Shown here: positions 5,181-64,000 of the stretch, piece after piece
Position numbering within the stretch: the first letter of the stretch is position 1
Layout: each line of letters begins with the position of its first letter
NCBI GenBank assembly: GCA_002086835.1
Contig: MVIG01000001.1
Span: forward strand, 124,001-188,000
Reading direction: 5' to 3'
From: Mycolicibacterium porcinum
Lineage (GTDB): Bacteria; Actinomycetota; Actinomycetes; Mycobacteriales; Mycobacteriaceae
DNA length: 64,000 nt
Translations under genes and position numbers: made by a program
Notes under the pieces: model-generated
What the model was told of the DNA's origin: nothing
Database searches by the model: none
Seen by the model: only the letters and a program-made list of their open reading frames with translations

Positions 5181-5213
5181 ACCCAGTTGCAGCGGTCCTC
5201 TTGTCCTCCTCGC

Positions 5214-10142: not shown

Positions 10143-10165
10143 ACAGACTCCTCCCGGACGGGTTC

Positions 10166-10179
10166 TTGACGGGCGTCAA
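10166..10179. promoter_or_regulatory. Inverted repeat TTGAC-N4-GTCAA upstream of the P450
   Basis: A perfect 5-bp-arm inverted repeat lies 24 bp upstream of the P450 start, in the 108-bp gap shared with the divergent esterase. It could be an operator, or TTGACG could be a -35 element on the minus strand, but no well-spaced -10 is evident. Short arms keep the confidence low. Confidence 0.35.
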
Positions 10180-10250
10180 TTTCCACCATATGTGATCGGC
10201 GCCACGTGGGGGAGGGGATTTTCGGAGATCTGGCCCGTACGCTCACAGCC

Positions 10251-48617: not shown

Positions 48618-49289
48618 ATCTCGATGCAACCGTAGGTGTCCGGCGATCACCACCACACAGGTGAGCGTGGCGGCCAGACCGAGTGGAACCGCGATGTGCA
48701 ATCGCAGCAGCACCGCACCGGCCACCGCGCCGAGGAAAATGACCAGAATGGCGGCCAGCCGGCGGTTGCACAGCGCCCCGCGCACACCGCCGGGCCAGGT
48801 CTCACCGGCCAGGCTGGCCAGCGTCGAGGTCACCACCACGGTGGTCATGTCCTTGACGGCCAGGGCACGGGCCACCATGGCTTGCTGTCCCATCACCGCG
48901 GCGACGGCGGTCGCGATGACCACCTGGCCGACGGCAGCCGGACTGTCCCCGGCGAATACGACGGCGACGGTGATCACCACCAGGCCCAGCGCCCCGGTGC
49001 CGAGCAGGACGGTGATCCGGGTGTCCCAACCTGTTGCCGGTCGGCCCCGCAACGCCAGACCCGCGGCGAAGGCACCCGCAGTGAAGCCGGCCAGCGCGAC
49101 GGCCGGGCCCAGTACCGGCAGGTCGTCGGCGCCGGCCACACCCATTCCGAGGATGACGATGTTGCCGGTCATGTTGCCGGTGAACACGCGGTCCAGTCCG
49201 AGGTAGCCGACCGCGTCGACGATGCCGGTGACGAACGTCAGCGTGATGGTCGCGAGCAGCCCGAGGCGGGCCCGATCAAGTCGCCGCAT
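48552..49289 (-). CDS. YoaK/DUF1275 family membrane protein
   Basis: A 245-residue protein with about 6 hydrophobic segments. The N-terminal pattern TFVTGIVDAVGYLGLDRVFTGNMTGNIVILGMG (in parts) is the hallmark of the DUF1275/YoaK family, proposed transporters of unknown substrate. It begins 3 bases after the stop of the permease gene on the same strand and is probably co-transcribed with it. It converges on the FGE gene with a 66-bp overlap. Confidence 0.9.
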   Translation of the reverse strand: MRRLDRARLGLLATITLTFVTGIVDAVGYLGLDRVFTGNMTGNIVILGMGVAGADDLPVLGPAVALAGFTAGAFAAGLALRGRPATGWDTRITVLLGTGALGLVVITVAVVFAGDSPAAVGQVVIATAVAAVMGQQAMVARALAVKDMTTVVVTSTLASLAGETWPGGVRGALCNRRLAAILVIFLGAVAGAVLLRLHIAVPLGLAATLTCVVVIAGHLRLHRDSGHIGDAAESDVGGRAVLRLR

Positions 49290-49292
49290 GAG

Positions 49293-50885
49293 CTAGAAGA
49301 TGACGATTGCGACGGTGGTGGCCAGGATCAACCCGGACATCACGGGTACGAAGCACTTGCGGGCCAGGCGCAGCACCGGCACCCGGGCGAAGCCTGCCAC
49401 AGCCACCAGTGAGGACCAGGCGACCAGCGTTCCGCCGCCGGACCAGATGTTGCCCATCTGCCCTATCGCGGCCAGTGTCGACGGATCCATGTCGACCACC
49501 GGGGCCAGCGCACCCGACAACGATCCGGTCAGTGGCAGCCCGCTGAAGCCCGAACCTTCCAAACCTGCGATGAGGCCGACGAACAGCACCGAGAACGCGG
49601 TGACAACCGGGTTCGGGGACAGGTGTGACTGGGCGGCGGTGATGAGGTCGAACAGGAAGGCCGGTCCGGGTGACCCGGAGGGCAGGCCGAGGATCGCTGC
49701 CGAGAAGTCACCGTTGCCGATGAAAAAGAACCCGGCGATCGGCAGCACGATCCCCATCGCCTTGAACGCGAACACCAGGCCATCGACCACGTGCTCCGAG
49801 GAGGTTTCCAGGAAATTGCGCTTGTCGTTGGTGGCCGATGCGGCGAACAGCAGGAGTGCGGCCAGGCCGCCGACGATGGCTGCCGCATCCCCGCCCTTGA
49901 GCCCGGGCACGATGTCGGTGAACTTGCCCAGCATCAGGTACACGATGAAACACAGGTAGACCAGCGGTACCAGCAGCGCGAACACTTTGGCCGAGAACAT
50001 GTTTCGGACCGGTTCGGATTCCTCGACCGGCCCGGGCAGCACCGCGGTGGGGGTGACGACGGCGGTCGCGGTGGCCGACCCGCCACCGTTGGTAGACGGT
50101 GCGGCGAGGGGTTGGGGCGGGACGACGCCGACGGTACCGCCCACGGCCGAACCCGCGCCAGGCTCGAGCTCGGGGTCCGCGGGCGAATCGGTCGGACGTC
50201 GGTCGGCCTCGTTCTCCCACTCCTGCAACAGGTCCGGGGAGGGCGTCCGCCAGCTACGTCGTTGCGTGACGAAGGTGATGGCCAGGGCGGTCAGTCCGAC
50301 GATGAGCGAGAGCACCATCGCCTTGTCGGCGACCGCGTCGGGATCCACTCCGGCGGCTTTCGCCGAGATACCCGGGGCGACTTTGATGATGTAGTCAGCG
50401 GACAGGGCCATCCCCTGTCCGCAGATCGCCATCACCATGCCGACCGACAGCGGGGCCAGACCGGCCCGGATGGCCACCGGTATGAGAACCGCGCCGACCA
50501 GAGGGACCGCCGGCGTGGGCCAGAAGAAGAGTGAGATCACGTACGTCACGATCGCCAGGACGACGAAGCTGCTGGTACCCGCCCGCATCACCCGGCGGAA
50601 CGGCGCGACCATCATCCGGTCGGCGCCCATCTGGCGCAGCGCCCCCAGCATGGCCGTGACGATCGCGATGATCAGGAAGATGTTGAACAGTTCCTTGGCC
50701 GCGGTGAGGCTGGCGTTGAAGATCGAGGACAGCCCGGTGATGAGGCTGCCGGAGAAGGCCCAGGCGGTGAGCAGGGTCGCGGTGACCGCTGGGACGACGA
50801 TGTTCTTGCGGATCGCCATTGTGGCCAGGATGACGAGGATGCCGGCCAGATAGATCCAGTGCGCCGCGGTCAGTGGGGTGTCCAA
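49293..50885 (-). CDS. DcuC/GntP-like permease, copy 1
   Basis: A 530-residue transporter with two blocks of transmembrane segments joined by a hydrophilic linker rich in Pro, Glu, Ala, Thr and Ser (about residues 215-300). The core FFWPTPAVPLVGAVLIP and GQGMALSADYIIKVAPG are shared almost position by position with the permease at 61468-63030, so the two are paralogues. The start is TTG at 50885, preceded by GAGAGG. The general family carries gluconate-, citrate- or dicarboxylate-like organic acids; the substrate here is unknown. It forms an operon with the DUF1275 gene. Confidence 0.85.
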   Translation of the reverse strand: MDTPLTAAHWIYLAGILVILATMAIRKNIVVPAVTATLLTAWAFSGSLITGLSSIFNASLTAAKELFNIFLIIAIVTAMLGALRQMGADRMMVAPFRRVMRAGTSSFVVLAIVTYVISLFFWPTPAVPLVGAVLIPVAIRAGLAPLSVGMVMAICGQGMALSADYIIKVAPGISAKAAGVDPDAVADKAMVLSLIVGLTALAITFVTQRRSWRTPSPDLLQEWENEADRRPTDSPADPELEPGAGSAVGGTVGVVPPQPLAAPSTNGGGSATATAVVTPTAVLPGPVEESEPVRNMFSAKVFALLVPLVYLCFIVYLMLGKFTDIVPGLKGGDAAAIVGGLAALLLFAASATNDKRNFLETSSEHVVDGLVFAFKAMGIVLPIAGFFFIGNGDFSAAILGLPSGSPGPAFLFDLITAAQSHLSPNPVVTAFSVLFVGLIAGLEGSGFSGLPLTGSLSGALAPVVDMDPSTLAAIGQMGNIWSGGGTLVAWSSLVAVAGFARVPVLRLARKCFVPVMSGLILATTVAIVIF

Positions 50886-51314
50886 AGTGGGACCTCTCGT
50901 TGAACTGCTGGTGGGCTGTGCAGTCTGATGGTGGAATGTTCGGCGTGACCGCGACCGGGGTCAACGACAACAGTGCACATCGGTTACTGCCTCACCATGT
51001 GCAATATGCTCTGGATTTGTCGGCGGGATGGCCCACGGTTTCCACGGCGTAACGTCTTGCTGTGACGTCGAACTCGTCGTCCCGGTGAGCAGTGCTTTTG
51101 TGCACCTTGCACATTCGCTGCCCGTGGTGGCTGTGCACCGTATCCCGTTGTGACCGGCCAAGTCGGGCCGTGGCGGTGAGACAGTGTTCTCTGAACGTAC
51201 GGGTGGCCGCGCATCACGAGATCGCGTCCGGAGACGCGTGCGTTGCCCGGGAGTTTCGGCAAACAGAGGAATCCGCAACGGGATTCGCCTGACACGAGGA
51301 TGGTTGAGCGCAGC
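50886..51314. promoter_or_regulatory. Divergent intergenic region with repeated ATGTGCAA motif
   Basis: A 429-bp gene-free region between the permease and the MFS gene. The octamer ATGTGCAA occurs at 50997-51004 (+) and 51107-51114 (-), and GTGCAC at 50973, 51100 and 51133. The same octamer is found at 54443-54450 upstream of the PucR gene. This suggests a binding site for the PucR regulator. No further gene is seen; open frames reaching into this area from the MFS gene lack a good start. Confidence 0.45.
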
Positions 51315-52712
51315 ATGACCGATGTCCGTGGCACCGCTCAACAGCCGGCCGGCTGCCTGGAGGGCGACATCGGCGGCAGCGACGATCGCACCGGCACGCC
51401 GCTCGGGCTGGCTGCGCTGCTGGCGGGCACACTGGTGGGTACCGTCAGCAACAACGTCGTGAATGTGCCACTCGGCGTCATCATCGACGAGTTCGACGCC
51501 CCACTGGGCAACGGAGTTTTCGTCGTGGTCGGCTTCCTGGTCTGCTTCGCCGCGACGATACCGCTGGCCGGCTGGTTCGGTGACCGGTTTGGCCGAAGGC
51601 GCATCTACTGCGCGGCGCTGCTGGCGACGGCGGTCTGCGCGGTAGGGGCTGCGACGGCGCCGTCGCTGCCGTTGTTGATCGCCTGGCGGTCCCTGGGCGG
51701 GGTGGCCGCCGCCGCATTCGCCCCAGCTGTGATGGGGTTGATCGCCTGGATGTTCTCCGGTCCGCGACGGGGCCGGGCGATGGGGGCCTGGGCCTCGGTC
51801 AACGGCATCGGGCAGGCCGTCGGTCCCAGCCTGGGCGGCCTGGTCGCCGACCACTGGGGCTGGCGCTGGGTATTCGTCCCGCTGGTGCCGGTGGCGTTGG
51901 CCGGCTTCGTTGGGACGCTGCGATACGTCCCCCGCTTCCCGGGCGTGCGGATGCCCTTCGACCTGGCGGGTGCGGCGGCACTGACCATCGGCTCGGCATT
52001 GCTGATGCTCGGCCTGGCCCTGGTATCCCAACCCGACATGCCCGGCTGGCTGGTGGCCGCCGCGGTGACGGCTGCGGTCGCCGCGCTGGCCTGGTTCGTC
52101 TGGCACTGCGCGCACACGCGAGCCCCGTTCGTCGATGTCCGACTGGTCACCGAATCACGGTTCGTCCGAAGCTGTCTGGCGGCGTTCGCGCAGATGTTCT
52201 GCCTCGGAGCGACGTTGCTGGCGGTACCGCTCTACCTGGTGGGGCAGTCGGTGTCGATCTCGGCGGCCGGGATGATGCTCTTCGTGGTGCCCGCGACAAT
52301 GGCGGTGCTCGGACCCCTGGTCGGACGTTGGCAGGACAGGTTGGGGCCGCGGCGGGTGCTGCGCAGCGGCCTGGTACTGCTGCTGATCGCCCAGGTCGGC
52401 ATGACTGTCACGGTGGGCCACGACCGGTTGGTGCTCGGTGCACTGATCGTCGTGCTGGTGATCGGCGGGGTGGGGATCTCCCTGGTGCAGACCCCGGCGG
52501 CCACCGGCGCCACCCGCTCGCCGGCCGGCGAACAGGGGACCGGCTTGGGGTTGTTCAACCTGCTGCGCTTCGGCGGGTCGGCGTGTGGCGCGGCATCGGT
52601 TGCGGTCGCTCTCGACCTGTCCGGTTACCCGGCCGTGTTCATCGCCTGTGCGGTGATCGTGGCGCTGGGGCTGGCCGGCTCGTTCGTCGGTCCCGACCCG
52701 CAGCCGGTGTGA
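51315..52712 (+). CDS. MFS transporter (DHA2-like)
   Basis: A 465-residue membrane protein with about 14 hydrophobic segments. Motif A appears as PLAGWFGDRFGRRRIYCAAL and the motif C region as ASVNGIGQAVGPSLGGLVADHWGWRW (in parts). ATG at 51315 is chosen because it directly precedes the hydrophilic start and first membrane segment; ATG at 51300 is possible. Its stop abuts the stop of the convergent PucR gene with no gap (TGATCA). It may import or export a compound linked to the catabolic locus. Confidence 0.88.
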   Translation: MTDVRGTAQQPAGCLEGDIGGSDDRTGTPLGLAALLAGTLVGTVSNNVVNVPLGVIIDEFDAPLGNGVFVVVGFLVCFAATIPLAGWFGDRFGRRRIYCAALLATAVCAVGAATAPSLPLLIAWRSLGGVAAAAFAPAVMGLIAWMFSGPRRGRAMGAWASVNGIGQAVGPSLGGLVADHWGWRWVFVPLVPVALAGFVGTLRYVPRFPGVRMPFDLAGAAALTIGSALLMLGLALVSQPDMPGWLVAAAVTAAVAALAWFVWHCAHTRAPFVDVRLVTESRFVRSCLAAFAQMFCLGATLLAVPLYLVGQSVSISAAGMMLFVVPATMAVLGPLVGRWQDRLGPRRVLRSGLVLLLIAQVGMTVTVGHDRLVLGALIVVLVIGGVGISLVQTPAATGATRSPAGEQGTGLGLFNLLRFGGSACGAASVAVALDLSGYPAVFIACAVIVALGLAGSFVGPDPQPV

Positions 52713-54380
52713 TCAGCGGAAGCTGGCCTCCCGGTCGATGGCCGAGTGCACCTCGTCGAGCAGGTCGAGCCGGATCGCCAGCCACACCGTGAACTGGTTC
52801 TCCGGCACCCGGATGTCCATCCCGAGCAGCCGCGAGATCCGGTCCAGCTTGGCCAGCATGGTGTTGCGGTGCACGTTGAGCATCCGCGCCGTGGCATTCA
52901 CATTGCCGCCCTCGGCCAGGTAGGCGCTCAGGGTCTCCAACAGGTCGGGGCTGGACCGCAACGGGCCCAGCACCTCTCGCACCAGCTGGCGGCTTTGTTC
53001 GGCCTCGGTGACCTGGGCCAGCACGGTGAAACCGCGCAGTTCCTGGTAGCAGGTGGCGCCGGTGCGGTGCAGCCGGCGGGCGATGCCGAGGGCGACGCGG
53101 GCCTCCCGGTAGCTCTCCCGCACCTCACTGGCGCCGCGCGCGGGCCGGCCGTAGGCCACCGGGGCGCGCAGGCCCCGGCGTCGCTCCAGCTCCAGCGACA
53201 TGGCCTCGGCGTACTCGGCCATCTCCTGGCGCATACCGGCGGGTTCTTCGGCGCGCAACGTGCGCACCACCACCAGGACATCGCCGATCACGGTGACGTA
53301 GGCGTGCACCGACGGGTGTGGGGCCAGACCGGCTGCGTAGCGGGCCAGTCGCACCATGCCCGCCGCGGGATTGTCCATCCGGCGCGGCAGTACCCCGGGA
53401 GCGACGAACACCGCGAACCGGGCGTCGAGTTCGATGTCGTGGTGCTCGGCGCGGGCGCGCATATCGTGCTCGCTGGAGAAGCTGCCGTGCACCAGGGCCT
53501 GGACGAAGTCGCCTCGGGCCCGTTCCTCGGCCTCGTCGACGCTGCGTTGGCGCAGCATCTCCGACCCCACGATGGCGGTGGCCTGGTCGGTCAGCACCTG
53601 GTATCGGGCCAGGTCATGGGCGCCCGGTGCCGGGTCTGCGACCAGCACCGCGACCCAGCCCTCGAAAGACTTGCCCAGCCGGATGGCGCTGGCCACACAG
53701 GTCCAGGTGCTCTCGTGCGGCCCGGGGATCGGTTGGACCCGGATGTCGTGACCGTCGGATCGCCGCTCGGCAGCGGGGACGTCGGCGTTCACCATCTCGA
53801 CGATCGAATCTGACAGCGGAGCAAGCATTTCCGGAACCAGCCCGTTGTGGGCCACCACGTGGCCGCGAGCGTCGAGCGCGACCGCCGGATTGCAGGCCAG
53901 ATTGGAGACCTCGCGGATCAGGATCTGCAATCCGGCGCCGCGGTGGAACAGCCCGGCCAGTGACGCGTGAACCTGGGTGGAATACCGCATCACGTGCACT
54001 TCCTGGCTGAGCGCGCGCTCGGCGAGCAGGCGGTTCAGCGCGGCGAAACCGACCGGTATGCCCAACTCGATGATCACCAGCCGATCCGGCACCGGACCCA
54101 GATCCGGCGGCACCACACCGTCCACCAACAGCGTGGTGGCGCCCCGGGCAGCCAGGGCCGAGAGCGCGGCAGTGCCGGCGGCCAGCGATTCCGGGCGAGC
54201 GTAGACGGCTACCGCGTCCAGCGGATCATGCTGGGAGAGAACCTCGTTGAGGGGAAGGACCCAACTCAACTCCAGATCGAGACGGTCGGTGCCGGTGACG
54301 ATCCTGGCGTCGGACATCAGGGCCTCGTCGAGAAGCCCCTGAATGGTCATCCGCCCGGTGTCGGCTGGTGGTGCGCTCAT
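52713..54380 (-). CDS. PucR family transcriptional regulator
   Basis: A 555-residue regulator with the PucR layout: an N-terminal PucR domain (IQGLLDEALMSDARIVTG ... LELSWVLPLNEVL), a central GGDEF-like/CdaR region (PSVHAYVTVIGDVLVVVRT and AYGRPARGASEVRESYREARVALGIA), and a C-terminal helix-turn-helix (LAEGGNVNATARMLNVHRNTMLAKLDRI). Such regulators often control purine, amine or amino-acid catabolism in response to a metabolite. It is divergent from the GlcG-HDO-Rieske operon and probably activates it. The ATG at 54380 gives the full domain. Confidence 0.94.
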   Translation of the reverse strand: MSAPPADTGRMTIQGLLDEALMSDARIVTGTDRLDLELSWVLPLNEVLSQHDPLDAVAVYARPESLAAGTAALSALAARGATTLLVDGVVPPDLGPVPDRLVIIELGIPVGFAALNRLLAERALSQEVHVMRYSTQVHASLAGLFHRGAGLQILIREVSNLACNPAVALDARGHVVAHNGLVPEMLAPLSDSIVEMVNADVPAAERRSDGHDIRVQPIPGPHESTWTCVASAIRLGKSFEGWVAVLVADPAPGAHDLARYQVLTDQATAIVGSEMLRQRSVDEAEERARGDFVQALVHGSFSSEHDMRARAEHHDIELDARFAVFVAPGVLPRRMDNPAAGMVRLARYAAGLAPHPSVHAYVTVIGDVLVVVRTLRAEEPAGMRQEMAEYAEAMSLELERRRGLRAPVAYGRPARGASEVRESYREARVALGIARRLHRTGATCYQELRGFTVLAQVTEAEQSRQLVREVLGPLRSSPDLLETLSAYLAEGGNVNATARMLNVHRNTMLAKLDRISRLLGMDIRVPENQFTVWLAIRLDLLDEVHSAIDREASFR

Positions 54381-54442: not shown

Positions 54443-54501
54443 ATGTGCAACTTAACCTGAATTTGCCGATAGTTCAGGTCATATTGACCATCCCGCCTGA
54501 A
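54443..54501. promoter_or_regulatory. Candidate PucR binding region
   Basis: In the 185-bp gap between the PucR gene and the GlcG-like gene lie ATGTGCAA (54443-54450), an inverted repeat ACCTGAA-N11-TTCAGGT (54455-54479), and a third CCTGAA half-site (54496-54501). ATGTGCAA recurs near the permease/MFS pair. These are candidate operator sequences for the divergent regulator. Confidence 0.5.
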
Positions 54502-54565: not shown

Positions 54566-55018
54566 ATGCACCGAATTCACCGCATCACCCTTGATGACGC
54601 GTTGCCGCTGCTGGCCGCGGGCCGGGCCAAGGCCGAGGAGATCGGCGTCAAGCAAACGCTGTGCGTTTGCGATGACGGCGGCAATGTCCTTGCGCTGCAC
54701 CGGTTGCCGGGCGCCCGGCTCACCGGCGTGGACATCGCCATCGCCAAGGCGTTCACCGCGGCCGGCCACGAGCGCGCCACCCACCTGTTCAACGAGCCGC
54801 CCAACGGACCGGCCCTGCCCGGCAACGAGGCGTTCGGCATCAGTCACATGCTGCCCGGCAAGTTCGCCATCTTCGTTGGCGGATTCCCCCTGGTCTTCGA
54901 CGGCCAGATCGTCGGCGGCGTGGGGATCAGCGGCGGCAACGGTGAACAGGACAAGGCCGTGGGCGCGGCGATCCTGTCCGAGTTCGAGGCGCTGACCGCC
55001 TCGGTGGCCCGGGCCTGA
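54566..55018 (+). CDS. GlcG/HbpS family protein (DUF336)
   Basis: A 150-residue GlcG/HbpS-like protein. The fold signature is clear: TLDDALPLLAAGRAKAEEIGVKQTLCVCDDGGNVLALHRLPGARLTGVDIAIAKAFTAA (in parts) and the glycine-rich IVGGVGISGGNGEQDKAVG. Members bind heme or cobalamin-like ligands or have obscure roles beside catabolic operons, often next to oxidoreductases. It is the first gene on the plus strand after the PucR region, with a 123-bp gap to the diiron oxidase gene. Confidence 0.9.
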   Translation: MHRIHRITLDDALPLLAAGRAKAEEIGVKQTLCVCDDGGNVLALHRLPGARLTGVDIAIAKAFTAAGHERATHLFNEPPNGPALPGNEAFGISHMLPGKFAIFVGGFPLVFDGQIVGGVGISGGNGEQDKAVGAAILSEFEALTASVARA

Positions 55019-55141
55019 CACCCGGCCGGTGTGCATCCTGACCCGTCCGGGAGCTGAGCGCCGGTGATTGTGACCATGGTCTGCGCCGAGCGCCCTAGTT
55101 AATCTCCTTGGCACCCAAGCTAATTCAAGAAAGGGCGAATC

Positions 55142-55861
55142 ATGACTCAACTTCTGGGACGCGACGAGTTCCGTGCCGAACTCGAGAATGCGATCAAAGG
55201 CCGAGAAGCCAAGAACGCGTCGTTCTCCAAGGCCTGGGCTGAGGGCAAACTCAGCAAGGAGCACTTCGCCCGGTGGGCGGAGAACCACTACCACTACGTC
55301 GGTCCGTTCGCCGACTACCTGGCCAACATCTACTCCAACACCCCCGACGAGTTCACCGGCGCAAAGGATTTCACACTGCAGAACATGTACGAGGAGGAGC
55401 TGGCCGACATCCGGCACACCGATCTGCTGATCAAGTTCGGTGAGGCCTGCGGGACCACCAAGGAACGCATCGAGGATCCGGCCAACATGAACGCGATCAC
55501 CCGCGGGCTACAGGCCTGGTGCTACGCGGTGTCGCAGCGCGAACACTTCGTGGTGGCCACCGCGGCCCTGGTGGTCGGACTGGAATCACAGGTACCCAGC
55601 ATCTACACCAAGCAGATCGTGCCGCTGCGGGAGGTGTACGGGTTCACCGAGGACGAGATCGAGTTCTTCGATCTGCACATCACTTCCGATGTGGTGCACG
55701 GTGAGCGCGGCTACCAGATCGTGCTCGATCACGCCGACACCCCGCAGTTGCAGCAGCGCTGCCTGCAGCTGGTGCGCTGGGGAGCCGAGATGCGGTTCTC
55801 CTACACCAAGGGTCTCTACGACTACTACGTCGCACCCGATCTCGAACCCGTTTCCGCCTGA
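55142..55861 (+). CDS. Heme-oxygenase-like diiron oxidase (HDO; CADD/TenA/PqqC-like fold)
   Basis: A 239-residue all-helical protein of the TenA/PqqC/CADD superfamily. It carries what looks like a full diiron site: Glu85-x6-His92 in EELADIRH, Glu148 in VGLESQVP, and His179-x3-Asp183-x2-His186 in LHITSDVVH. These match the six metal ligands known for CADD in order and spacing, whereas PqqC is metal-free. HDOs use O2 to oxidise amines, amino acids or fatty acids. Rieske ferredoxin and reductase genes follow at once, suggesting dedicated electron delivery. An AAAGGG site precedes the ATG; a small CTTGG/CCAAG repeat at 55107-55119 lies upstream. Substrate unknown. Confidence 0.85.
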   Translation: MTQLLGRDEFRAELENAIKGREAKNASFSKAWAEGKLSKEHFARWAENHYHYVGPFADYLANIYSNTPDEFTGAKDFTLQNMYEEELADIRHTDLLIKFGEACGTTKERIEDPANMNAITRGLQAWCYAVSQREHFVVATAALVVGLESQVPSIYTKQIVPLREVYGFTEDEIEFFDLHITSDVVHGERGYQIVLDHADTPQLQQRCLQLVRWGAEMRFSYTKGLYDYYVAPDLEPVSA

Positions 55862-55896
55862 TTCCCGATCCGCCGCCTCGACAGAAAGGTAACGCC

Positions 55897-56247
55897 ATGA
55901 CCACGCAGTGGATCGCGGTGGCGAGCACCAAGGACCTCACCCGCCGCCGCAAGCTCCGGGTCGAGATCGACGGTCTGGCCATCGCATTGTTCGAGGCGGC
56001 GGGACGGGTATATGCGTTCGCCGACACCTGTATTCATCAAGACCGGTCCCTGGCCAAGGGCACCCTGCTGCACGGCAAGGTGATCTGCCCGGGCCATCAG
56101 TGGCAGTTCGACCTGGAGACCGGGTACGAGGAGAGTCAGGACCGCTGCCAGCCCACGTACCCGGTCCGGGTCGAGGGAGAAACCATCTACGTCAACCCAA
56201 CGGCCCCGCTGGGCGCCGTGACCGCGGGAAGGGAAGCGCAGGCATGA
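55897..56247 (+). CDS. Rieske-type [2Fe-2S] ferredoxin, copy 1
   Basis: A 116-residue small Rieske protein. The cluster ligands are Cys45-x-His47 and Cys64-x2-His67 (CIHQDRSL ... CPGHQWQFD). Such proteins shuttle electrons from an FAD reductase to an oxygenase. AAAGG precedes the ATG. The stop overlaps the start of the reductase gene (ATGA), so the two are coupled. The most obvious acceptor in the cluster is the diiron oxidase. Confidence 0.95.
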   Translation: MTTQWIAVASTKDLTRRRKLRVEIDGLAIALFEAAGRVYAFADTCIHQDRSLAKGTLLHGKVICPGHQWQFDLETGYEESQDRCQPTYPVRVEGETIYVNPTAPLGAVTAGREAQA

Positions 56248-57500
56248 CCGGTCGGACTCTCGTGACCGTCGGGGCGGGGCAGGCAGCCGCGGTGGCCGCC
56301 CGCACCCTGCGCCGGCGCGGTTTCGACGGGCGCATCGTGCTGGTGGGCGACGAGCCGCATCTGCCCTATCAGCGACCCCCACTGTCCAAAGAATTCCTTT
56401 CCGGCGCTGACGGTTTCGAGTCGCTAGAGATCCTGCCCGAGAAGTGGCGGGCCGACAATGATGTGGAGATCCGCACCCGCGCCGAGGTGATCCGGGTCGA
56501 TGCGGCCGGGCGCCGGGTGGAGCTGGCCTCGGGGGCGCCGATCGAGGCTGACGCCGTGCTGTTCGCCACCGGCGGGCGACCCCGGGTTCTGCAGGTGCCG
56601 GGCCCACGCCCGGAACTCGTGCACTACCTGCGCACCGTCGACGATGCGATCGCCCTGCAACGCTCACTCACCCCCGGTAGCCGGTTGGCCATCATCGGTG
56701 CCGGCTTCGTCGGGCTGGAAACAGCCGCCACCGCACGGAGTCTGGGTACCGAGGTGACCGTGCTGGAGGCCGCGCCGGTGCCGCTGGCCAACGTCATCGG
56801 CGCCCGGCTGGGTGCTGAACTCGTGCGCATCCACCGTGACCACGGCGTCGACGTGCGCACCGGCGTCACGGTCGAGCAGTTGAGTACCACCGCCGAGGGC
56901 GTGGTGGTGGACTGTGCGGACGGCGGTCGACTGGAAGCCGATGCGGTGCTGATCGGAATCGGCATCGTCCCCAACACCGAGGTGGCCGCGGCCTCTGGCC
57001 TGCAGGTGCGCGACGGCATCGTGGTCGACGCGCAGGGCCGAACCTCGACGCCGCACATCTACGCCGCAGGTGATGTGGCGCAACGCTACTCGGCTCGGGC
57101 CGGCGGTCACGTCCGGTTCGAACACTTCGACAACGCCAACCGGCAGGGTGCCGCGGTGGCCAACGCCATGCTCGGTCGCGATGCGGTCAGCGACGACGCC
57201 CCGTGGTTCTGGTCGGACCAATACGACCACAACCTGCAACTGCTCGGCGAAGCCACCACCGACCTGGTGATCCGCGGCAATCCCGATGACAACGACTTCA
57301 CCGCCTTCTACCTCGACGGCGACCTGCTGCGCGGAGTGTTCACCGCCGATCGGGGCGAGGACGTGATGGTGGGCCGGGAATTGCTGGGACGCCACATCGA
57401 ACGGGCGGTGCTCGCCGACGAGGACACCGACCTGTGGGACCTGGTGGAAACCGAGGAGGCGGTGTCGTGTTGCCCGAGCACACGAGGAACGAAACAGTGA
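56244..57500 (+). CDS. FAD-dependent ferredoxin reductase
   Basis: A 418-residue NAD(P)H:ferredoxin reductase of the putidaredoxin/rubredoxin reductase type found with Rieske and P450 oxygenases. It has an N-terminal FAD motif (LVTVGAGQAAAVAARTLRRRG), the signature LPYQRPPLSKEFL, a central NAD motif (RLAIIGAGFVGLETAATARSLG) and the second FAD motif STPHIYAAGDVA. ATG at 56244 overlaps the Rieske stop; the stop overlaps the proposed ALDH start (GTGA). It would pass electrons from NAD(P)H to the Rieske proteins. Confidence 0.95.
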   Translation: MTGRTLVTVGAGQAAAVAARTLRRRGFDGRIVLVGDEPHLPYQRPPLSKEFLSGADGFESLEILPEKWRADNDVEIRTRAEVIRVDAAGRRVELASGAPIEADAVLFATGGRPRVLQVPGPRPELVHYLRTVDDAIALQRSLTPGSRLAIIGAGFVGLETAATARSLGTEVTVLEAAPVPLANVIGARLGAELVRIHRDHGVDVRTGVTVEQLSTTAEGVVVDCADGGRLEADAVLIGIGIVPNTEVAAASGLQVRDGIVVDAQGRTSTPHIYAAGDVAQRYSARAGGHVRFEHFDNANRQGAAVANAMLGRDAVSDDAPWFWSDQYDHNLQLLGEATTDLVIRGNPDDNDFTAFYLDGDLLRGVFTADRGEDVMVGRELLGRHIERAVLADEDTDLWDLVETEEAVSCCPSTRGTKQ

Positions 57501-58936
57501 TCGAAGGAACGAATTTCATCGACGGCCAGTGGGTGCCCGCGGTGTCCGGCCGGACCTTCCGGCGGTGCAATCCCGCCGACCCCGACGACGTGATCGGGGT
57601 CTTCCCGGCGTCAGAGGCCGCCGATGTGAGTGCCGCGGTCGAGGCACTGGAGAAGGCCGGCCCGGAATGGGCGGCCACCGCACCCGAACACCGCGCCGCG
57701 ATCCTGGAATCGGCTGCCGCGCAGTTGGAATCGCGCGCACCAGAGCTGATCGCCGAGCTGATCCGGGAAGAGGGAAAGACCACCGCCGAGGCCACCATGG
57801 AGGTCAGCCGGACCCCGGCCAACCTGCGCTTCTACGCCGGGGAGGCCACCCGGACCACCGGAAGCACCTATCCCGCGGCCGGCGACGGACTGGTCTACAC
57901 CCTGCGAGAACCAGTCGGCATCGTCGGCGCGATCACCCCGTGGAATTTCCCGTTCAACATCCCGTCGCGCAAGATCGGACCTGCGCTGGCCGCCGGTAAC
58001 CCGGTGTTGTTCAAACCCTCCGAGATCACCCCGCTGATGGGGCAGCGTCTGGTCGAAGCCCTGCTGGACGGCGGCTTGCCGCCCGGCGTCATCGCACTGG
58101 TGCAGGGCGAGGGCGCCGCGGGGGCTGCGGTCGCCGCCGAATCCCGGGTAGCGGCCGTCACCTTCACCGGTTCCACCCAGGTCGGCCGGGCCATCCACCG
58201 CGTCGTCGGACCTCAGCGCCGCGTGCAGTTGGAGATGGGTGGGAAGAACCCGGTGGTGGTCGCCGAGGACGCCGACCTCGACGGCGCCGCGGCTCTGATC
58301 GTCAAGGGCGCCTTCGGGCTCAGCGGTCAGGCCTGCACCGGTACCAGCCGGGTGATCGCGGTGGACGCCGTGCACGACGCGCTGCTGGAACGGGTGGTCG
58401 CGAAGGCAGACACGCTTCGGGTCGGCCCAGGGGACCAGCCCGGGGTGAACATGGGCCCGCTGGCCAGCGCTGCCCAACTCGACAAGTTCTTGCACTACGT
58501 GCAGACCGGTGTGGCAGAGGGGGCCAGCCTGCGCTGCGGCGGCACCACCGTCGGTGATCACGGATTCTTCGTCCGTCCCACCGTTTTCGCCGATGCGCTA
58601 CCCACCATGCGAATTGTCACCGAGGAGGTCTTCGGGCCGTTGATCGCCTTCCAGCGGGCCGGCTCGCTGGACGAGGCGGTGGATCTGGCCAACGCCACCG
58701 AGTTCGGGCTCAGCGCGGCGATCGTCACCGGTGACCTCGCCGCCGCCACCCGGTTCGCGCACCGGTCCAGGACGGGCCTGGTCAAGGTCAACCAGCCCAC
58801 CACCGGCATGGCGATGAACGCCCCGTTCGGCGGTTACAAGGCCTCCAGCACCCAGACCTACAAGGAACAGGCCGGCGCCACGCTCATGGAGTTCTACACG
58901 CTGGAGAAGACCGTCTACCTGACCCCGTCCGTTTGA
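57497..58936 (+). CDS. Aldehyde dehydrogenase (NAD(P)+)
   Basis: A 479-residue ALDH-superfamily enzyme. Catalytic residues are Glu246 in QLEMGGKNP and Cys280 in SGQACTGTS; the coenzyme motif FTGSTQVGRAI and the oxyanion Asn in PWNFPFN are present. The C-terminal KEQAGATLMEFYTLEKTVY resembles the alpha-ketoglutarate semialdehyde dehydrogenase branch. GTG at 57497 overlaps the reductase stop by 4 bases; a GTG at 57467 is an alternative. It probably oxidises an aldehyde made in this pathway. Confidence 0.94.
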   Translation: MIEGTNFIDGQWVPAVSGRTFRRCNPADPDDVIGVFPASEAADVSAAVEALEKAGPEWAATAPEHRAAILESAAAQLESRAPELIAELIREEGKTTAEATMEVSRTPANLRFYAGEATRTTGSTYPAAGDGLVYTLREPVGIVGAITPWNFPFNIPSRKIGPALAAGNPVLFKPSEITPLMGQRLVEALLDGGLPPGVIALVQGEGAAGAAVAAESRVAAVTFTGSTQVGRAIHRVVGPQRRVQLEMGGKNPVVVAEDADLDGAAALIVKGAFGLSGQACTGTSRVIAVDAVHDALLERVVAKADTLRVGPGDQPGVNMGPLASAAQLDKFLHYVQTGVAEGASLRCGGTTVGDHGFFVRPTVFADALPTMRIVTEEVFGPLIAFQRAGSLDEAVDLANATEFGLSAAIVTGDLAAATRFAHRSRTGLVKVNQPTTGMAMNAPFGGYKASSTQTYKEQAGATLMEFYTLEKTVYLTPSV

Positions 58937-58948
58937 ACAGGAGCTGCA

Positions 58949-59302
58949 ATGGAATTCACCCGAGTCGCCCGGTCGGGGCAGGTGCCCGAAGGGATCGTGC
59001 GGCGGTTCTTCGCCGGCGAGCACGAGTTCGCGGTGGCTCGCCTCAACGGCAAGGCCTACGCCACGTCCAACTACTGCACCCACCTGGACTGCATGTTGTC
59101 CTCGGGCAAGCTCGTCGACGACGGGATCGGATGTTCCTGCCACGGAAGCGCATTCGACCTGGAGACCGGTGAACCGATCTGCCCGCCCGCCACCGTCGCG
59201 ATCAAGACCTACCCGGTGCAGGAACGCGACGGGGAGATCTTCGTCGGTGTGGAACCCGGCGAGATCCCGGTCGGTCCGCGCCGTCGGCGCAAGGGAGCGT
59301 GA
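58949..59302 (+). CDS. Rieske-type [2Fe-2S] ferredoxin, copy 2
   Basis: A 117-residue Rieske ferredoxin with ligands Cys43-x-His45 and Cys62-x2-His65 (CTHLDC ... CSCHGSAFD), plus extra cysteines at 48 and 64. It differs clearly from copy 1 (more NirD/biphenyl-dioxygenase-ferredoxin-like). AGGAG precedes the ATG. Its stop shares a base with the next gene's ATG. No Rieske oxygenase alpha subunit is present in the window, so its acceptor is open. Confidence 0.94.
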   Translation: MEFTRVARSGQVPEGIVRRFFAGEHEFAVARLNGKAYATSNYCTHLDCMLSSGKLVDDGIGCSCHGSAFDLETGEPICPPATVAIKTYPVQERDGEIFVGVEPGEIPVGPRRRRKGA

Positions 59303-60900
59303 TGGACCCCGAAGCGCGCCCGTCGGCGCTGTCGCTGGGTGGCATGGTCAGCTCCAGCCATCCCGCGGCCAGCTTCGCCGGGGCCCGGGTGCTGGCGGCG
59401 GGCGGCAACGCCATCGACGCCACCTTGGCCATGGCCGCGCTCACCTGGCTGGTGCTGCCCGGCCAATGCGGGATCGGCGGCGACGCGTTCGCGGTGGTGC
59501 GCGAACCCGACGGCCGGGTGTGGACGATCGGCGGATCGGGATTCGGCCCGGACGGCGGGACCACCCCGTTCTATCGCGACCAGGGGCTGAGCACCATCCC
59601 GCTGTACGGGGCGCTCGGTGTCGCCGTCCCCGGTGCACCTGCGGCGCTGGCGGCCCTGCACACCCACGGGGCCAGCCGCGGGCTGCCCGAACTGTGGGAG
59701 CCCGCGGCCCGGATCGCCGAGACCGGTCTGGCCTGCTCGGCCAAGACCGCCGCCGACGTACGCGAGGCGCTCACCGCCATCCGCCGCGATCCCGGCCTGG
59801 CCGCGGTCTATGCACCCGGCGGGGACGCGGCCCGGGTGGGGGACCGGATCGCGCAACCCGATCTGGCGCGCACCATTCGCCGGCTGGCCCACGACCCGAC
59901 CGATTTCTACACCGGCGAATTCGCCGAACGTGCCGTCACGATGTTGTCTGCGGCCGGCGCGCCGTTCAGCGGTGATGAGTGGGCGGCCGGGGCCGCCGCC
60001 GCGCCCGAGACCGCGATCACCGGCGGCTACGCCGGCGCCACGATCCACCAGACCCCGTTGCCCACACCCGGCTGGATGGTGCTGCACCAGGCCGCACTGT
60101 GCGACGGCGTCCTCGGCGACCGGCCCTGGCTGGGCGCCGAGGCGATTGACCGGATGGCGCGGGCAGCCCGGCTGGCCTTCGCCGACCGGCTGGCGCTGTG
60201 CGGCAGCGACAACACCGGATGGCGAGACATCCTGGATCCCAACCGGATTGCGCGCCAACGTCAGGACCTGGCACACGCCAGCGAGGACCGCTTGGCGTTT
60301 TCGGTGCGCGGCGGGGACACCACCTGCACCGCTGCCGTGGATGCTGCCGGTCGTGCGGTGTCATTCATCCACTCGCTGGGTTTCACCTTCGGAGCGACTC
60401 TCACCGTGCCCGGTACCGGGGTGGTGCTCAACAACCGGCTGGGCCGCGGTGCCTACCTGATCCCAGGTCACCCCAACGAAGTCGTGCCGCGACGTAGACC
60501 GCTCAACACCCTCAATGCCTGGATCGCCACCGGAGCGCGCGAGGAGCTGCTGGCTCTTGGCAGCATTCCCGGCGGGGACGGGCAGGTGCAATGGAACATG
60601 CAGCTGCTGTCGCATCTGTTCGACCATGGGCTGGACCCGGCCGCCGCGGTGGCCGCGCCCCGGTTCACCGTGTTCCCCGGGTCCGACGCCGAGGTGATCG
60701 ATCAACCAGCCGAACTGCGCGTCGAGGATCGGATCGACGAGCGGGCCCGGGAACGGTTGCGCGCCAACGGTCACCGGGTCGTGGTGCAAGGGCCCTACGG
60801 CGCAGGCGGCAGCGCCCAGGTGATCTGCCGCGACGAACGTGGGGTACTGCGCGGCGCCGCCGATCCGCGCCAGGAAGGAGTGGCGATCGGTGTCGACTGA
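59302..60900 (+). CDS. Gamma-glutamyltransferase family Ntn hydrolase
   Basis: A 532-residue GGT-like protein. The autoprocessing/nucleophile Thr is Thr340 in GGDTTCTAAVD, in place of the usual TTH motif (here T-T-C), followed by GTGVVLNNRLGRGA. The N-terminal half begins with the family pattern GGMVSSSHPAAS ... AGARVLAAGGNAIDATLAMA. No signal peptide is seen, unlike most GGTs, so it is probably cytoplasmic. It could cleave gamma-glutamyl or other amide bonds. ATG at 59302 follows AAGGGAG; a GTG sits one codon before it. The stop overlaps the ridA-like gene. Confidence 0.9.
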   Translation: MDPEARPSALSLGGMVSSSHPAASFAGARVLAAGGNAIDATLAMAALTWLVLPGQCGIGGDAFAVVREPDGRVWTIGGSGFGPDGGTTPFYRDQGLSTIPLYGALGVAVPGAPAALAALHTHGASRGLPELWEPAARIAETGLACSAKTAADVREALTAIRRDPGLAAVYAPGGDAARVGDRIAQPDLARTIRRLAHDPTDFYTGEFAERAVTMLSAAGAPFSGDEWAAGAAAAPETAITGGYAGATIHQTPLPTPGWMVLHQAALCDGVLGDRPWLGAEAIDRMARAARLAFADRLALCGSDNTGWRDILDPNRIARQRQDLAHASEDRLAFSVRGGDTTCTAAVDAAGRAVSFIHSLGFTFGATLTVPGTGVVLNNRLGRGAYLIPGHPNEVVPRRRPLNTLNAWIATGAREELLALGSIPGGDGQVQWNMQLLSHLFDHGLDPAAAVAAPRFTVFPGSDAEVIDQPAELRVEDRIDERARERLRANGHRVVVQGPYGAGGSAQVICRDERGVLRGAADPRQEGVAIGVD

Positions 60901-61327
60901 ACAGATGCCTGCAGTCGTCCCGCAGGGCGACTACCGGCCGGCGGTGCTGCATGACGGTGTGGTGTACACCGCGGGTGTGACGCCTCGGGTGGGCGGCGAG
61001 CTGAGGGTGCGCGGTGTGGTCGGGCAAACACTGTCGGCGGAGCAGGCCCGGGCCGCCGCGCAGATCGCGGCTGCGAATGCGCTCGCGGCGGTGCGGTCAG
61101 TTCTGCCCGCCGACGCCGAGAGGATCCGGTGCCTGCGGATGACGGTCTACATTGCCTGTACGCCAACATTTCACGATCTTTCCGCAGTCGCCGACGGTGC
61201 CTCGGCGCGGATCCGGTCAGAACTCGGGGATGCTGCGTTGCCGGTGCGGGCCGCCATCGGGGTGCAGACCCTACCGTCCGGCGCCCCGGTCGAAATCGAC
61301 TTGATTGCAGCGGTTTCGAGACGGTGA
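60890..61327 (+). CDS. RidA (YjgF/UK114) family protein
   Basis: A 145-residue RidA-type protein; family members hydrolyse reactive enamine/imine intermediates made by amine and amino-acid enzymes. The C-terminal block LPVRAAIGVQTLPSGAPVEIDLIAA carries the conserved Arg and the trimer-forming strand. The GTG at 60890 lies 9 bases after GGAG and overlaps the end of the GGT-like gene. Its presence suggests that the pathway forms an enamine or imine. Confidence 0.92.
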   Translation: MSTEQMPAVVPQGDYRPAVLHDGVVYTAGVTPRVGGELRVRGVVGQTLSAEQARAAAQIAAANALAAVRSVLPADAERIRCLRMTVYIACTPTFHDLSAVADGASARIRSELGDAALPVRAAIGVQTLPSGAPVEIDLIAAVSRR

Positions 61328-61467
61328 GGAGCAATCGGACCGGATAGCGCACGGCGCGTCGGAATGTGCGCTATTGATTGTAGTGCGTCTGACGTTCGGT
61401 CAGCTGAAGCGAAACCGACTGAACACCAGAGTGTTACGACAACAGCCCGAAGAACTATGTGGATTGG

Positions 61468-63030
61468 ATGGTGACGCCTTTGTCTGCGGCACACTGGGTC
61501 TACCTGATCGGTCTCGCTGTACTGATAGCGACCGTGGTGGCCAAGAAGAACGTGATCGCCCCGGCTCTCGTCGCCACCTTCCTCACCGGCCTGGTCTATC
61601 AGGGCAGCTTCACCATGGGGCTGGGCTCGATCTTCAACGCTGCCATCGCCGGGACCCGGGAGCTGCTACCGGTTTTCATCATCATCGCTCTGGTGACCGC
61701 GATGCTCGGGGCGATGCGCGCACTCGGTGCCGACGTCTTGATGGTCCGCCCGTTGAGCGGGTTCTTCCGCAACGGCCACATCTCGTATGTGCTGCTCGCG
61801 GTGGTGACCTTCCTGCTGTCGCTGGCGTTCTGGCCCACCCCGGTACTGCCACTGATCGCTGCGATCCTGCTGCCCGCCGCGCTCCGGGCCGGTCTGTCGC
61901 CGTTGGGCGCGGCGTTGGCGATCGCCATCGCCGGGCAGGGGATGGCGCTGAGTTCGGACTACATCATGGGGGTGGCTCCGGCGCTGTCCGCCGAAGGTGC
62001 CCACGTCTCGGCCCGGATGATCGCCGACCGCGCTACCGTCATCGCCCTGATCGCCGGGGTGATGGCGTTGGTGGTGGCCTACTTCCGCGACGTACGGACC
62101 AAGATGTCCAACCCGGCCGAGGCTGACGAAAGCCCCTCGTCCGGCTCCGGTCAGGCCGAATCGAGTTCCGGTCGCACAGTCACTTCGGGCCCCACCCCGG
62201 GGACTCCGGCCGCTGCCGCTGACCCGGTGCCGGCCGGGCCCGGGGCCGCGAACCGAGGCGCCACCGCGACCCTGGCCGTCGCCCCGGCCTCCGAAACTGC
62301 CACCGCCGAATCCGATCGGCCCTCGCCCAAGGCGCTGATCGTCGCCGTGTGCGTACCTGCGTTGTTCGGGGCCCTGCTGGTTTTCATGCTGCTCGGCCGT
62401 TTCACCTCGCTGATCCCCGATATCGACGAGGGATTGGGTGCACCCCTGGTCGGTGGCACCGCCGCGCTCGCGCTGGTGGCAATCGCCTTGATCGCCAAGC
62501 GAAACGACTGGCTGGGTGAAGTCGGCACCCACTTCACCGACGGCATCACCTTCTCGTTCCGCACGATGGGGATGGTGATTCCGGTGGCCGGCTTCGTCTA
62601 CATCGGGCTGGCCGACTACTCCGGGGGAATTCTGGGTCTGCCCGAGGGTGCGGATGCACCGGCATTCCTGTTCGACGCCGTCGAGCGGGTGCAACCGCAC
62701 ATTCCACAGGTGCCGGTGTTCGCGGCCTTCGCGATGCTGCTGATCGGCATGCTGATCGGGCTGGACGGAAACGGTTGGCCAGGCTTGCCGTTCACCGGAT
62801 CGATGGCCGGGGCGCTCGGGGGTGACAGCACCGATGTGGCCACACTCGCCGCCATCGCGCAGAACGGGGCCAGCTGGACCGGCGGTGGCACGCTGGTGAT
62901 CTGGTCGTCGCTGATCGTGGTCGCCGGCCTGACCGGGGTTCCGGTCGTCGACCTGGCCCGTCGGTTGTTCATCCCGGTCGTGACAGGACTGGTGGTGGCC
63001 ACTGCGATCGCCGCGGCGGTCATGCTGTGA
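61468..63030 (+). CDS. DcuC/GntP-like permease, copy 2
   Basis: A 520-residue transporter, paralogue of the permease at 49293-50885. Shared blocks include LFWPTP-type LAFWPTPVLPLIAAILLPAA, AGQGMALSSDYIMGVAPAL and SWTGGGTLVIWSS. A Pro/Ser/Ala/Glu-rich linker of about 75 residues separates the two membrane halves. The ATG at 61468 is chosen by comparison with the start of copy 1 (TPL-AAHW-YL); GTG at 61459 or 61471 is possible. It is the likely importer for the catabolic cluster, since its stop overlaps the amidase start (GTGA). Confidence 0.87.
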   Translation: MVTPLSAAHWVYLIGLAVLIATVVAKKNVIAPALVATFLTGLVYQGSFTMGLGSIFNAAIAGTRELLPVFIIIALVTAMLGAMRALGADVLMVRPLSGFFRNGHISYVLLAVVTFLLSLAFWPTPVLPLIAAILLPAALRAGLSPLGAALAIAIAGQGMALSSDYIMGVAPALSAEGAHVSARMIADRATVIALIAGVMALVVAYFRDVRTKMSNPAEADESPSSGSGQAESSSGRTVTSGPTPGTPAAAADPVPAGPGAANRGATATLAVAPASETATAESDRPSPKALIVAVCVPALFGALLVFMLLGRFTSLIPDIDEGLGAPLVGGTAALALVAIALIAKRNDWLGEVGTHFTDGITFSFRTMGMVIPVAGFVYIGLADYSGGILGLPEGADAPAFLFDAVERVQPHIPQVPVFAAFAMLLIGMLIGLDGNGWPGLPFTGSMAGALGGDSTDVATLAAIAQNGASWTGGGTLVIWSSLIVVAGLTGVPVVDLARRLFIPVVTGLVVATAIAAAVML

Positions 63031-64000
63031 GCTTCGCGCTGACAGCTCAGGGGAACACAGCCGTTGAGATCGCGGACGCGGTCAGGGCGGGGGAGATCTC
63101 TGTCGTCGAAACGGTCCGCGCAGCATTGGGCCGGGTCGAATCTCACGACGATGAGATCGGTGCATTCGTCCACGTGGACGTCGAGGGTGCGCTCGCACGG
63201 GCCGAGGCGTTGGACCGGCTGGTGTCCCGCGGCGTCGATCCCGGTCCTCTTGCCGGAGTTCCCTTGGGCGTCAAGGAACTTCACCCGGTGGCCGGTTGGC
63301 CTTTCGCCATGGGTAGCGCGCTGTACGCCGACCGGGTCGCCGACCATACCTGCACTCTGGTGAACCGTGCCGTGGCCGCCGGGGCGGTGCCGATCGGCCT
63401 GACCGCCTCGCCCGAGTTCGGCAGGGCGTCCTATACCGCATCGGAACTGCACGGCGTGACCCGTAATCCGTGGAATCCGCGCCTCACTCCGGGCGGATCG
63501 AGCGGAGGATCGGCAGCCGCGGTGGCCGCGGGCATGGTGCCGATCGCCACCGGCACCGACGGGGCTGGTTCCCTGCGAATCCCGGCCTCTTACTGTGCGC
63601 TGGTCGGATTCAAGACCACTTACGGTCTGGTTCCGCGCGGTCCGCGCCACCGCGGTGCCGCCGACAACGACCATTACGGTGCCCTCACCCGAACCGTCCG
63701 CGACACCGCCCGGTTCCTGGACTGTGTGTGCGGGCTCGATCCTTACGATCGGGCGTCGCTGCCTGCACCCGGCAGCTTCGAGAATGGGCTGAACATCGAC
63801 CTGCGTGGGCTGCGCGTGGCGTTCGCCGCGGACCTCGGCAACGCTCCGTGCGACCCGGCGGTGGCCGAGGTCGCTCATGGGGCGGCCGAGAGGTTCATCG
63901 CCGAAGTCGGGGCGGCGCGGGTATCCGCTCGCTTACGCGTGGACCCGGCCTGCGGCACGGCCTATCGGATTCTGTCGGCCCCAGACGTCTATTCGCAGGT
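63027..64000 (+). CDS. Amidase signature family hydrolase (3' end beyond window)
   Basis: The gene starts with GTG at 63027, overlapping the permease stop, and runs out of the window after about 324 codons without a stop. The Ser-cisSer-Lys triad of amidases is visible: Lys83 in [10 protein letters not shown], the cis-Ser in GGSSGGS (156-162), and the nucleophile Ser182 in [13 protein letters not shown]. It would hydrolyse an amide to acid and ammonia or amine. Together with the GGT-like and RidA proteins it points to breakdown of a nitrogen compound. Confidence 0.93.

Follow-up and report, generated by a model that had tools for sequence, protein, structure and literature searches.

A conserved actinobacterial operon that probably gives a heme-oxygenase-like diiron oxidase a dedicated electron chain of Rieske ferredoxins and a reductase

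A 64,000-nucleotide stretch of the 7-Mb Mycolicibacterium porcinum genome (GenBank assembly GCA_002086835.1, contig MVIG01000001.1, here C1, positions 124001-188000; below, the window) carries an operon in which genes for an HbpS-like protein and a heme-oxygenase-like diiron oxidase (HDO) are followed by genes for a Rieske ferredoxin (Rieske 1), a ferredoxin reductase (FdR), an aldehyde dehydrogenase (ALDH), a second Rieske ferredoxin (Rieske 2), a hydrolase resembling gamma-glutamyltransferase (GGT) and a Rid-family protein (Table 1). Our analysis leads us to propose that the operon would encode a multicomponent HDO oxygenase for catabolism, in which electrons would pass from NAD(P)H to the FAD-containing ferredoxin reductase, then to the Rieske ferredoxin or ferredoxins, and finally to the diiron HDO. 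We put the probability that the electron chain serves the HDO at about 0.8. This link is strongly supported by synteny in 80 loci, by a phylogenetic profile, by fusions among the chain proteins and by a different chain beside the HDO of Burkholderiales; the same evidence bears out the first-pass annotation of this DNA, which had assigned the HDO its own Rieske ferredoxins and reductase.

Within this scheme, the HDO would activate O2 and oxidize a small nitrogen-containing compound (an amine, an amide or an N-heterocycle) taken up by a linked transporter. The oxidized product, an imine or enamine together with an aldehyde, would pass to the Rid protein, the GGT-like amide hydrolase and the ALDH, and a PucR-type regulator would control the operon. 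We infer the direction of electron flow and all of the substrate steps.

Genomic linkage of the oxidase and its putative electron chain

We compared the window with the best 80 of 497 relatives obtained by a scan of genome contigs. All 80 loci are actinobacterial by record title, and at least 80 genome records of Actinobacteria thus carry the operon. Rieske 1 lies immediately 3' of the HDO gene in every one of them, and the only locus without FdR, L097 (L numbers denote fetched loci, and coordinates given with them are within that locus), stops 319 bases past the HDO. Gene absences in some of the other loci also reflect contigs that end early. The order of the genes around the HDO differs between genera, implying that the HDO-Rieske 1-FdR unit has been kept while its surroundings were rearranged, and conservation of the arrangement over 80 loci rules out chance.

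The phylogenetic profile was obtained by searching 148 related genomes whole, with HDO called at E<=1e-10. HDO occurs in 11 of them; the same 11, and no others, have a Rieske 1 homolog of at least 52% identity, and a Rieske 2 homolog of at least 58% identity is likewise found in exactly these 11. Outside the HDO genomes, the matches listed at E<=1e-15 comprise a single one to Rieske 1, at 42%, and matches to Rieske 2 in 12 genomes, at 37-41%. The distribution of HDO itself is patchy: it is found in 36 of 396 genomes of the phylum at E<=1e-10, just one of which besides the source genome exceeds 70% identity, and at E<=1e-30 in 5 of 394 genomes of the class and 3 of 296 of a second class. As a control we used 29 other loci with the HDO family domain, PF14518 (28 that are distant, plus the source genome's second such locus); with flanks of about 1.5 kb or less, none of the 29 matched any cluster protein except the HDO at E<=1e-3.

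Chain proteins are fused in two loci. In L110 (Streptomyces sp. HNM0575, 8804-11014) a single 737-aa open reading frame (ORF) consists of Rieske, Pyr_redox_2, Reductase_C and Rieske domains, and in L149 (6323-7885, minus strand) one of 520 aa joins FdR to a Rieske domain. Both adjoin the HDO, and in both the Rieske part includes a Rieske 2 homolog, so that the two fusions together link the reductase with Rieske 1 as well as Rieske 2. None of the loci tested has a fusion that includes the HDO. A further locus, L117 (Pseudonocardia sp. CNS-139, 4214-6319), in which Rieske 1 and FdR share a frame before the FdR frame breaks through sequence error or decay, was excluded from the fusions.

Outside the Actinobacteria, a plasmid collection yielded six relatives of the HDO that share 65-69% identity with it and come from Cupriavidus and Caballeronia, and also one PqqC-type match, from Azospirillum. 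In the Burkholderiales loci L136-L139, genes for ALDH and HbpS accompany the HDO, as do those for a transporter of the same family as the window's (44-48% identity), a GntR regulator, a member of the ornithine-cyclodeaminase family and a small protein that is conserved. Rieske 1, FdR, Rieske 2, GGT and Rid have no match there at E<=1e-4. Instead, a reductase of the composition Fer2+FAD_binding_6+NAD_binding_1 stands beside the HDO (a Pfam assignment for L136 and L137, a tblastn match for L138 and L139), together with two ferredoxin genes of the Fer2 type (Pfam for L137, tblastn for the other three loci); annotated gene names in L137 and L138 are taken from their records. If the carriers serve the HDO, one expects the HDO to retain its other neighbors where the carriers are different ones, and we read the different Burkholderiales chain as support for the HDO as the electron acceptor. 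The co-occurrence of HDO and Rieske genes that the first-pass annotation had anticipated holds in 80 of 80 loci and fails, literally taken, in these four, where another reductase and other ferredoxins take the place of the Rieske chain. Between the two ferredoxin genes of L137 (at 11078-11428) lies a conserved 116-aa protein with 36% identical homologs in Cupriavidus; it matches no Pfam or NCBIfam family and is possibly a further component. Two actinobacterial loci, L055 (9633-10184) and L148 (9432-9797), have small Fer2 ferredoxins between HDO and Rieske 1 in which, by eye, aspartate replaces the third cluster cysteine of the Burkholderiales homolog.

The oxidase, its carriers and known systems

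The assignment of the oxidase rests on its ligands and its fold. Residues E85, H92, E148, H179, D183 and H186 line up in a sequence alignment with the metal ligands of CADD and so provide the 3His/3carboxylate set of the HDO superfamily. All six are invariant in 42/42 sequences of an alignment that holds 42 of the 81 available HDO sequences (the window plus the 80 loci), and in 23/23 HDOs spanning two phyla. A first mechanical count of 78/79 traced its odd row, L110, to a wrong-frame ORF; no loss of a ligand was found. Structure prediction gave the heme-oxygenase-like helical fold that characterizes the superfamily, and CADD is the closest relative both in sequence and in predicted fold, with PqqC also among the nearest. 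Two further glutamates, candidates for the auxiliary ligand of a 3H/4C set, are invariant: E101, which by DSSP ends helix 72-102, and E108, within helix 107-111. We take the metal to be diiron rather than Mn/Fe and the activity to be that of an oxygenase.

A CADD-type para-aminobenzoate (pABA) synthase was rejected as a candidate. The residues that such an enzyme sacrifices, Tyr27 and Lys152 of CADD according to the NePabS paper (PMC11965152), correspond to Ser29 and Gln158 in the HDO, both invariant in 23/23 sequences, and the TIGR04305 score is 93.7 bits against a cut-off of 200. Mean column identity over the rows kept is highest for HDO and HbpS (0.90 and 0.86, versus 0.65-0.78 for the other six). 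This ranking is only indicative, since the identity floor for keeping a row was not the same for every protein and was set highest for HDO and HbpS. The genome holds a second PF14518 protein (L005 10846-12195, at about 570 kb of contig C1), whose flank, of about 1.5 kb or less, has no match to the operon's other proteins.

The CxH...CxxH cluster motif and PF00355 are present in both Rieske proteins. Rieske 1, with near-invariant C45, H47, C64 and H67, matches the biphenyl- and naphthalene-dioxygenase ferredoxins and T4moC and is of the dioxygenase type, in contrast to Rieske 2. The latter has two extra cysteines, Cys48 and Cys64, among its near-invariant residues (C43, H45, C48, C62, C64, H65), and its motif, CTHLDC...CSCHGS, resembles the loops that carry a disulfide in Rieske proteins of the bc1 type. 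The two may be carriers of different potential, and we propose Rieske 1 as the direct donor to the HDO. FdR is HcaD/AndAa-like, with the PF07992 and PF14759 domains of the FAD ferredoxin reductases of oxygenase systems, and scores under the HcaD equivalog cut-off (355 versus 450).

To our knowledge, physiological electron donors have been established for hardly any HDO, and the first-pass statement that they are unknown for most of the family needs one update, from a paper of April 2026: MboB, a flavin/Fe2S2 reductase, is needed for full conversion by the HDO MboA (PMC13185094). The two systems share an HDO with a dedicated redox partner, and the Burkholderiales version likewise has a Fer2/FAD/NAD reductase; this is a likeness by description and gene content, known on the window side from genomic linkage. 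They differ in that MboA/MboB is a biosynthetic peptide desaturase/acetylenase of mangotoxin with a single reductase, whereas the window system has FdR, two Rieske ferredoxins and catabolic-type genes. The self-sacrificing pABA synthases CADD and NePabS are set apart from the window HDO not only by the Tyr27/Lys152 pair of CADD but also by its catabolic-type operon and electron chain. The chains of toluene-4-monooxygenase and of the biphenyl and phenylpropionate dioxygenases are those that Rieske 1 and FdR resemble, but they end in a ferritin-like diiron hydroxylase or a Rieske oxygenase, where we propose an HDO. HrmI, UndA, BesC, PolF and FlcD are natural-product HDOs, for which the consulted part of a 2026 HDO review mentions no dedicated donor; the same part counts about a dozen functionally validated HDOs and places them in biosynthesis.

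No description of the operon was found in the open-access literature searched. It seems to us somewhat better than an even bet that no catabolic HDO has been recognized before this one, which would also be the first HDO whose supply chain is complete and made of several proteins (an FAD reductase, a dioxygenase-type Rieske protein and a Rieske protein with bc1-like cysteines), an HDO counterpart of toluene-4-monooxygenase that includes a natural single-chain Rieske-reductase-Rieske donor and, in Burkholderiales, a swap to a BenC-type chain. Through a conserved gene set of soil bacteria, the question of how electrons reach the HDO family becomes testable: a widespread operon-encoded HDO with its chain allows reconstitution, interface mapping and steady-state turnover with defined partners, and the natural fusions are ready single-protein donors. 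The regulator and the transporter make an unrecognized catabolic pathway reachable.

Substrate and competing explanations

The accessory proteins point toward the chemistry. For ALDH, which has near-invariant C289 and E255 (numbered from a start at 57470), the top NCBIfam models are 2,5-dioxovalerate/ketoglutaric-semialdehyde dehydrogenases, under cut-off. The GGT-like protein has a near-invariant threonine pair, T341/T342, and scores 222 bits on TIGR00066 against a cut-off of 357.85, so that we call it GGT-like only and claim no true GGT activity. The Rid protein, at 30.4 versus 106.25 bits on TIGR00004, the archetypal RidA model, is assigned to the Rid family only; its nearest solved structure is PA0814 (9bk9), and its near-invariant R120 stands at what we take to be the position of the RidA arginine. 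Rid proteins hydrolyze imines and enamines, and ornithine-cyclodeaminase-family enzymes act on imines. Together, the semialdehyde-type ALDH, Rid, the ornithine-cyclodeaminase-family gene and the GGT threonine pair suggest that the HDO product may be an imine, an enamine or an N-acyl enamine. A route from an amine or amide through an imine to an aldehyde and an acid, as proposed in the first-pass annotation, would be compatible with the Rid, ALDH and GGT-like genes. That the HDO oxidizes the carbon next to nitrogen is our tentative suggestion, held at a little under even odds.

HbpS is related by sequence to EfgA (6bws, among its PDB relatives), which we take to be formaldehyde-binding, and HbpS may accordingly be an aldehyde or substrate binder. 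The transporter Trp1 has no NCBIfam and no PDB match, and neither its paralog Trp2 nor one Cupriavidus homolog has a Pfam match. Its family occurs in 7 records of the plasmid collection, 6 of which are those with HDO, and Trp1 probably imports the substrate. Two other ideas about the pathway were discarded. A gamma-glutamylamide route would pair GGT with a glutamine-synthetase-like ligase; no such family was recognized by eye in the first 90 residues of one member of each of 35 otherwise unmatched ORF families present in at least 2 of 82 loci (crude ORF calling). A short-chain dehydrogenase/reductase as a core part was set aside as well, a related gene being present, among the loci searched, only in L107, L149 and L146/L142.

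The HDO might instead be an N-oxygenase or a C-C-cleaving enzyme like HrmI, BesC or UndA, with Rid and ALDH clearing by-products. We regard this as possible though doubtful: Rid and a semialdehyde-type ALDH would better fit a route from imine or enamine to aldehyde, and the Burkholderiales loci, which gave no match to Rid, have an ornithine-cyclodeaminase-family gene. A special case of the scheme that we favor is the oxidative opening of an N-heterocycle, in which the HDO would replace the flavin monooxygenase of uracil- or pyridine-type pathways and the GGT-like and Rid proteins would act on an N-acyl enamine, following the logic of those pathways. It is suggested by an Arthrobacter sulfonylureivorans plasmid (L150 12568-24645) on which a Trp homolog, 41-44% identical to the window's two, stands with a luciferase-like monooxygenase, a flavin reductase, an amidase, an ALDH and a TetR-Rid protein, a gene set that resembles those for oxidative N-heterocycle opening. 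As a single locus it is no more than a lead; blastp at E<=1e-5 does not match its Rid to that of the window, identity to our ALDH and amidase is only 36-39%, and we consider this variant unlikely.

Explanations in which the HDO takes no electrons from the chain, or is a different kind of enzyme, fare worse. Rieske ferredoxins usually serve Rieske oxygenases, and the two ferredoxins and the reductase could feed one encoded elsewhere, the HDO being an unrelated neighbor. No such partner was found nearby. As the first-pass annotation had stated, the window lacks a Rieske oxygenase alpha subunit: it contains 0 of the genome's 11 PF00848 matches, and the single one on its contig is about 507 kb away. 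Nor was an alpha subunit seen by eye over 18 kb of the downstream stretch (the amidase, then ribosomal-protein genes) or recognized among the 35 recurrent ORF families. The locus is hence without the pairing of a PF00848 alpha subunit and ferredoxins that marks a Rieske non-heme oxygenase system. Set against this idea are also the synteny with HDO in 80/80 loci, the exact profile match in 148 genomes and the other chain of the Burkholderiales HDO, and we think it very unlikely. That the HDO is a metal-independent PqqC-like oxidase is less probable again; PqqC is among its closest sequences and folds, but the equivalog model TIGR02111 scores 45 bits against a cut-off of 240, and the 3His/3carboxylate set is invariant. 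Heme breakdown, with HbpS binding heme and the HDO as a ferredoxin-fed heme oxygenase, could claim the name of the fold, the family name of HbpS and the ferredoxin/reductase supply; given six invariant dimetal ligands, CADD as closest relative, and ALDH, GGT-like and Rid proteins that would have no place in it, we find it barely credible.

Several observations weigh against an HDO oxygenase fed by its own chain. The comparison drew on the 80 most similar loci, which by title are all actinobacterial. The source genome's 11 PF00848 matches mean that Rieske oxygenases could in principle use these ferredoxins, and in Caballeronia a ring-hydroxylating dioxygenase alpha/beta pair lies about 10 kb from the HDO, although two Cupriavidus loci tested have no match to this alpha subunit. 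In L055 and L148, from another actinobacterial class, the HDO is separated from Rieske 1 by a Fer2 protein, and the stretches searched, of 15 and 18 kb, contain no match to FdR. Each fusion is known from one assembly and might be an assembly error. GGT is absent from L101, L104, L110, L111 and L118, and Rid from L111, L118 and L129, despite a full 8 kb on each side of the HDO, so that the proposed downstream chemistry is not universal. The Arthrobacter plasmid with the transporter homolog, finally, has no HDO match.

Gene layout and control region

The gene positions, families and start/stop overlap of the first-pass annotation were all confirmed by ORFs and Pfam matches (Table 1). The overlaps (ATGA at 56244 between Rieske 1 and FdR, GTGA at 57497 between FdR and ALDH, one at 59299 between Rieske 2 and GGT, and 11 nt between GGT and Rid) link Rieske 1, FdR and ALDH on the one hand and Rieske 2, GGT and Rid on the other; the ALDH start is probably the GTG at 57497, which overlaps the FdR stop. 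The conserved unit is longer than the HbpS-to-Rid set and includes Trp1, the MFS gene and the PucR gene.

Table 1. Genes of the operon and its surroundings, with window coordinates and occurrence among the 80 loci
Feature	Coordinates	Strand	Family match and occurrence
Trp1, membrane transporter without known family	49293-50885	-	homolog (Trp1 or paralog Trp2) in 66/80
MFS transporter	51243-52712	+	PF07690; homolog in 66/80
PucR-type regulator, divergent from HbpS	52713-54380	-	PF13556 + PF17853; homolog in 69/80
HbpS-like (DUF336) protein	54566-55018	+	PF03928; 70/80
HDO	55142-55861	+	PF14518, 118.9 bits
Rieske ferredoxin 1	55897-56247	+	PF00355; 80/80
FdR, FAD- and NAD(P)-binding ferredoxin reductase	56244-57500	+	PF07992 + PF14759; 79/80
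ALDH	57497-58936	+	PF00171; 75/80
Rieske ferredoxin 2	58949-59302	+	PF00355; 76/80
GGT-like hydrolase	59299-60900	+	PF01019; 69/80
Rid-family protein	60890-61327	+	PF01042; 69/80
Trp2, second transporter, optional	61459-63030	+	44% identity to Trp1; place best matched by Trp2 in 15/80
Amidase, optional	63027-64000 and beyond	+	amidase models below cut-offs (window part); whole ORF in downstream stretch L004; 12/80

Intergenic spacers were compared in the window and 16 chosen loci from related genera of the same layout. The aligned PucR-HbpS spacers contain the block ATGTGCA (window 54443-54449, plus strand) in 13/17 sequences and TAGA[ACT]AT in 15/17; neither occurs in any of the 17 spacers upstream of the HDO. 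The latter have no common block, and TTGACC, a motif of the PucR-HbpS spacer, is present in one of the 17. Our guess is that the ATGTGCA block may be a PucR operator or a promoter element.

Beyond the window, the amidase reaches contig position 188421, 421 bases past the window end, and ribosomal-protein genes lie 3' of it. Past these (L004 8836-15449) are, by eye, genes for an MFS transporter, a GntR regulator, two Asp/Glu-racemase-like proteins, a 2-hydroxyacid dehydrogenase and a second amidase. On the upstream side are an FGE-sulfatase-family gene (PF03781; 47709-48617), with a homolog in 14/80 loci, and a gene for a DUF1275 membrane protein (48552-49289), whose recurrent and otherwise unmatched ORF family is present in 34 of 82 loci.

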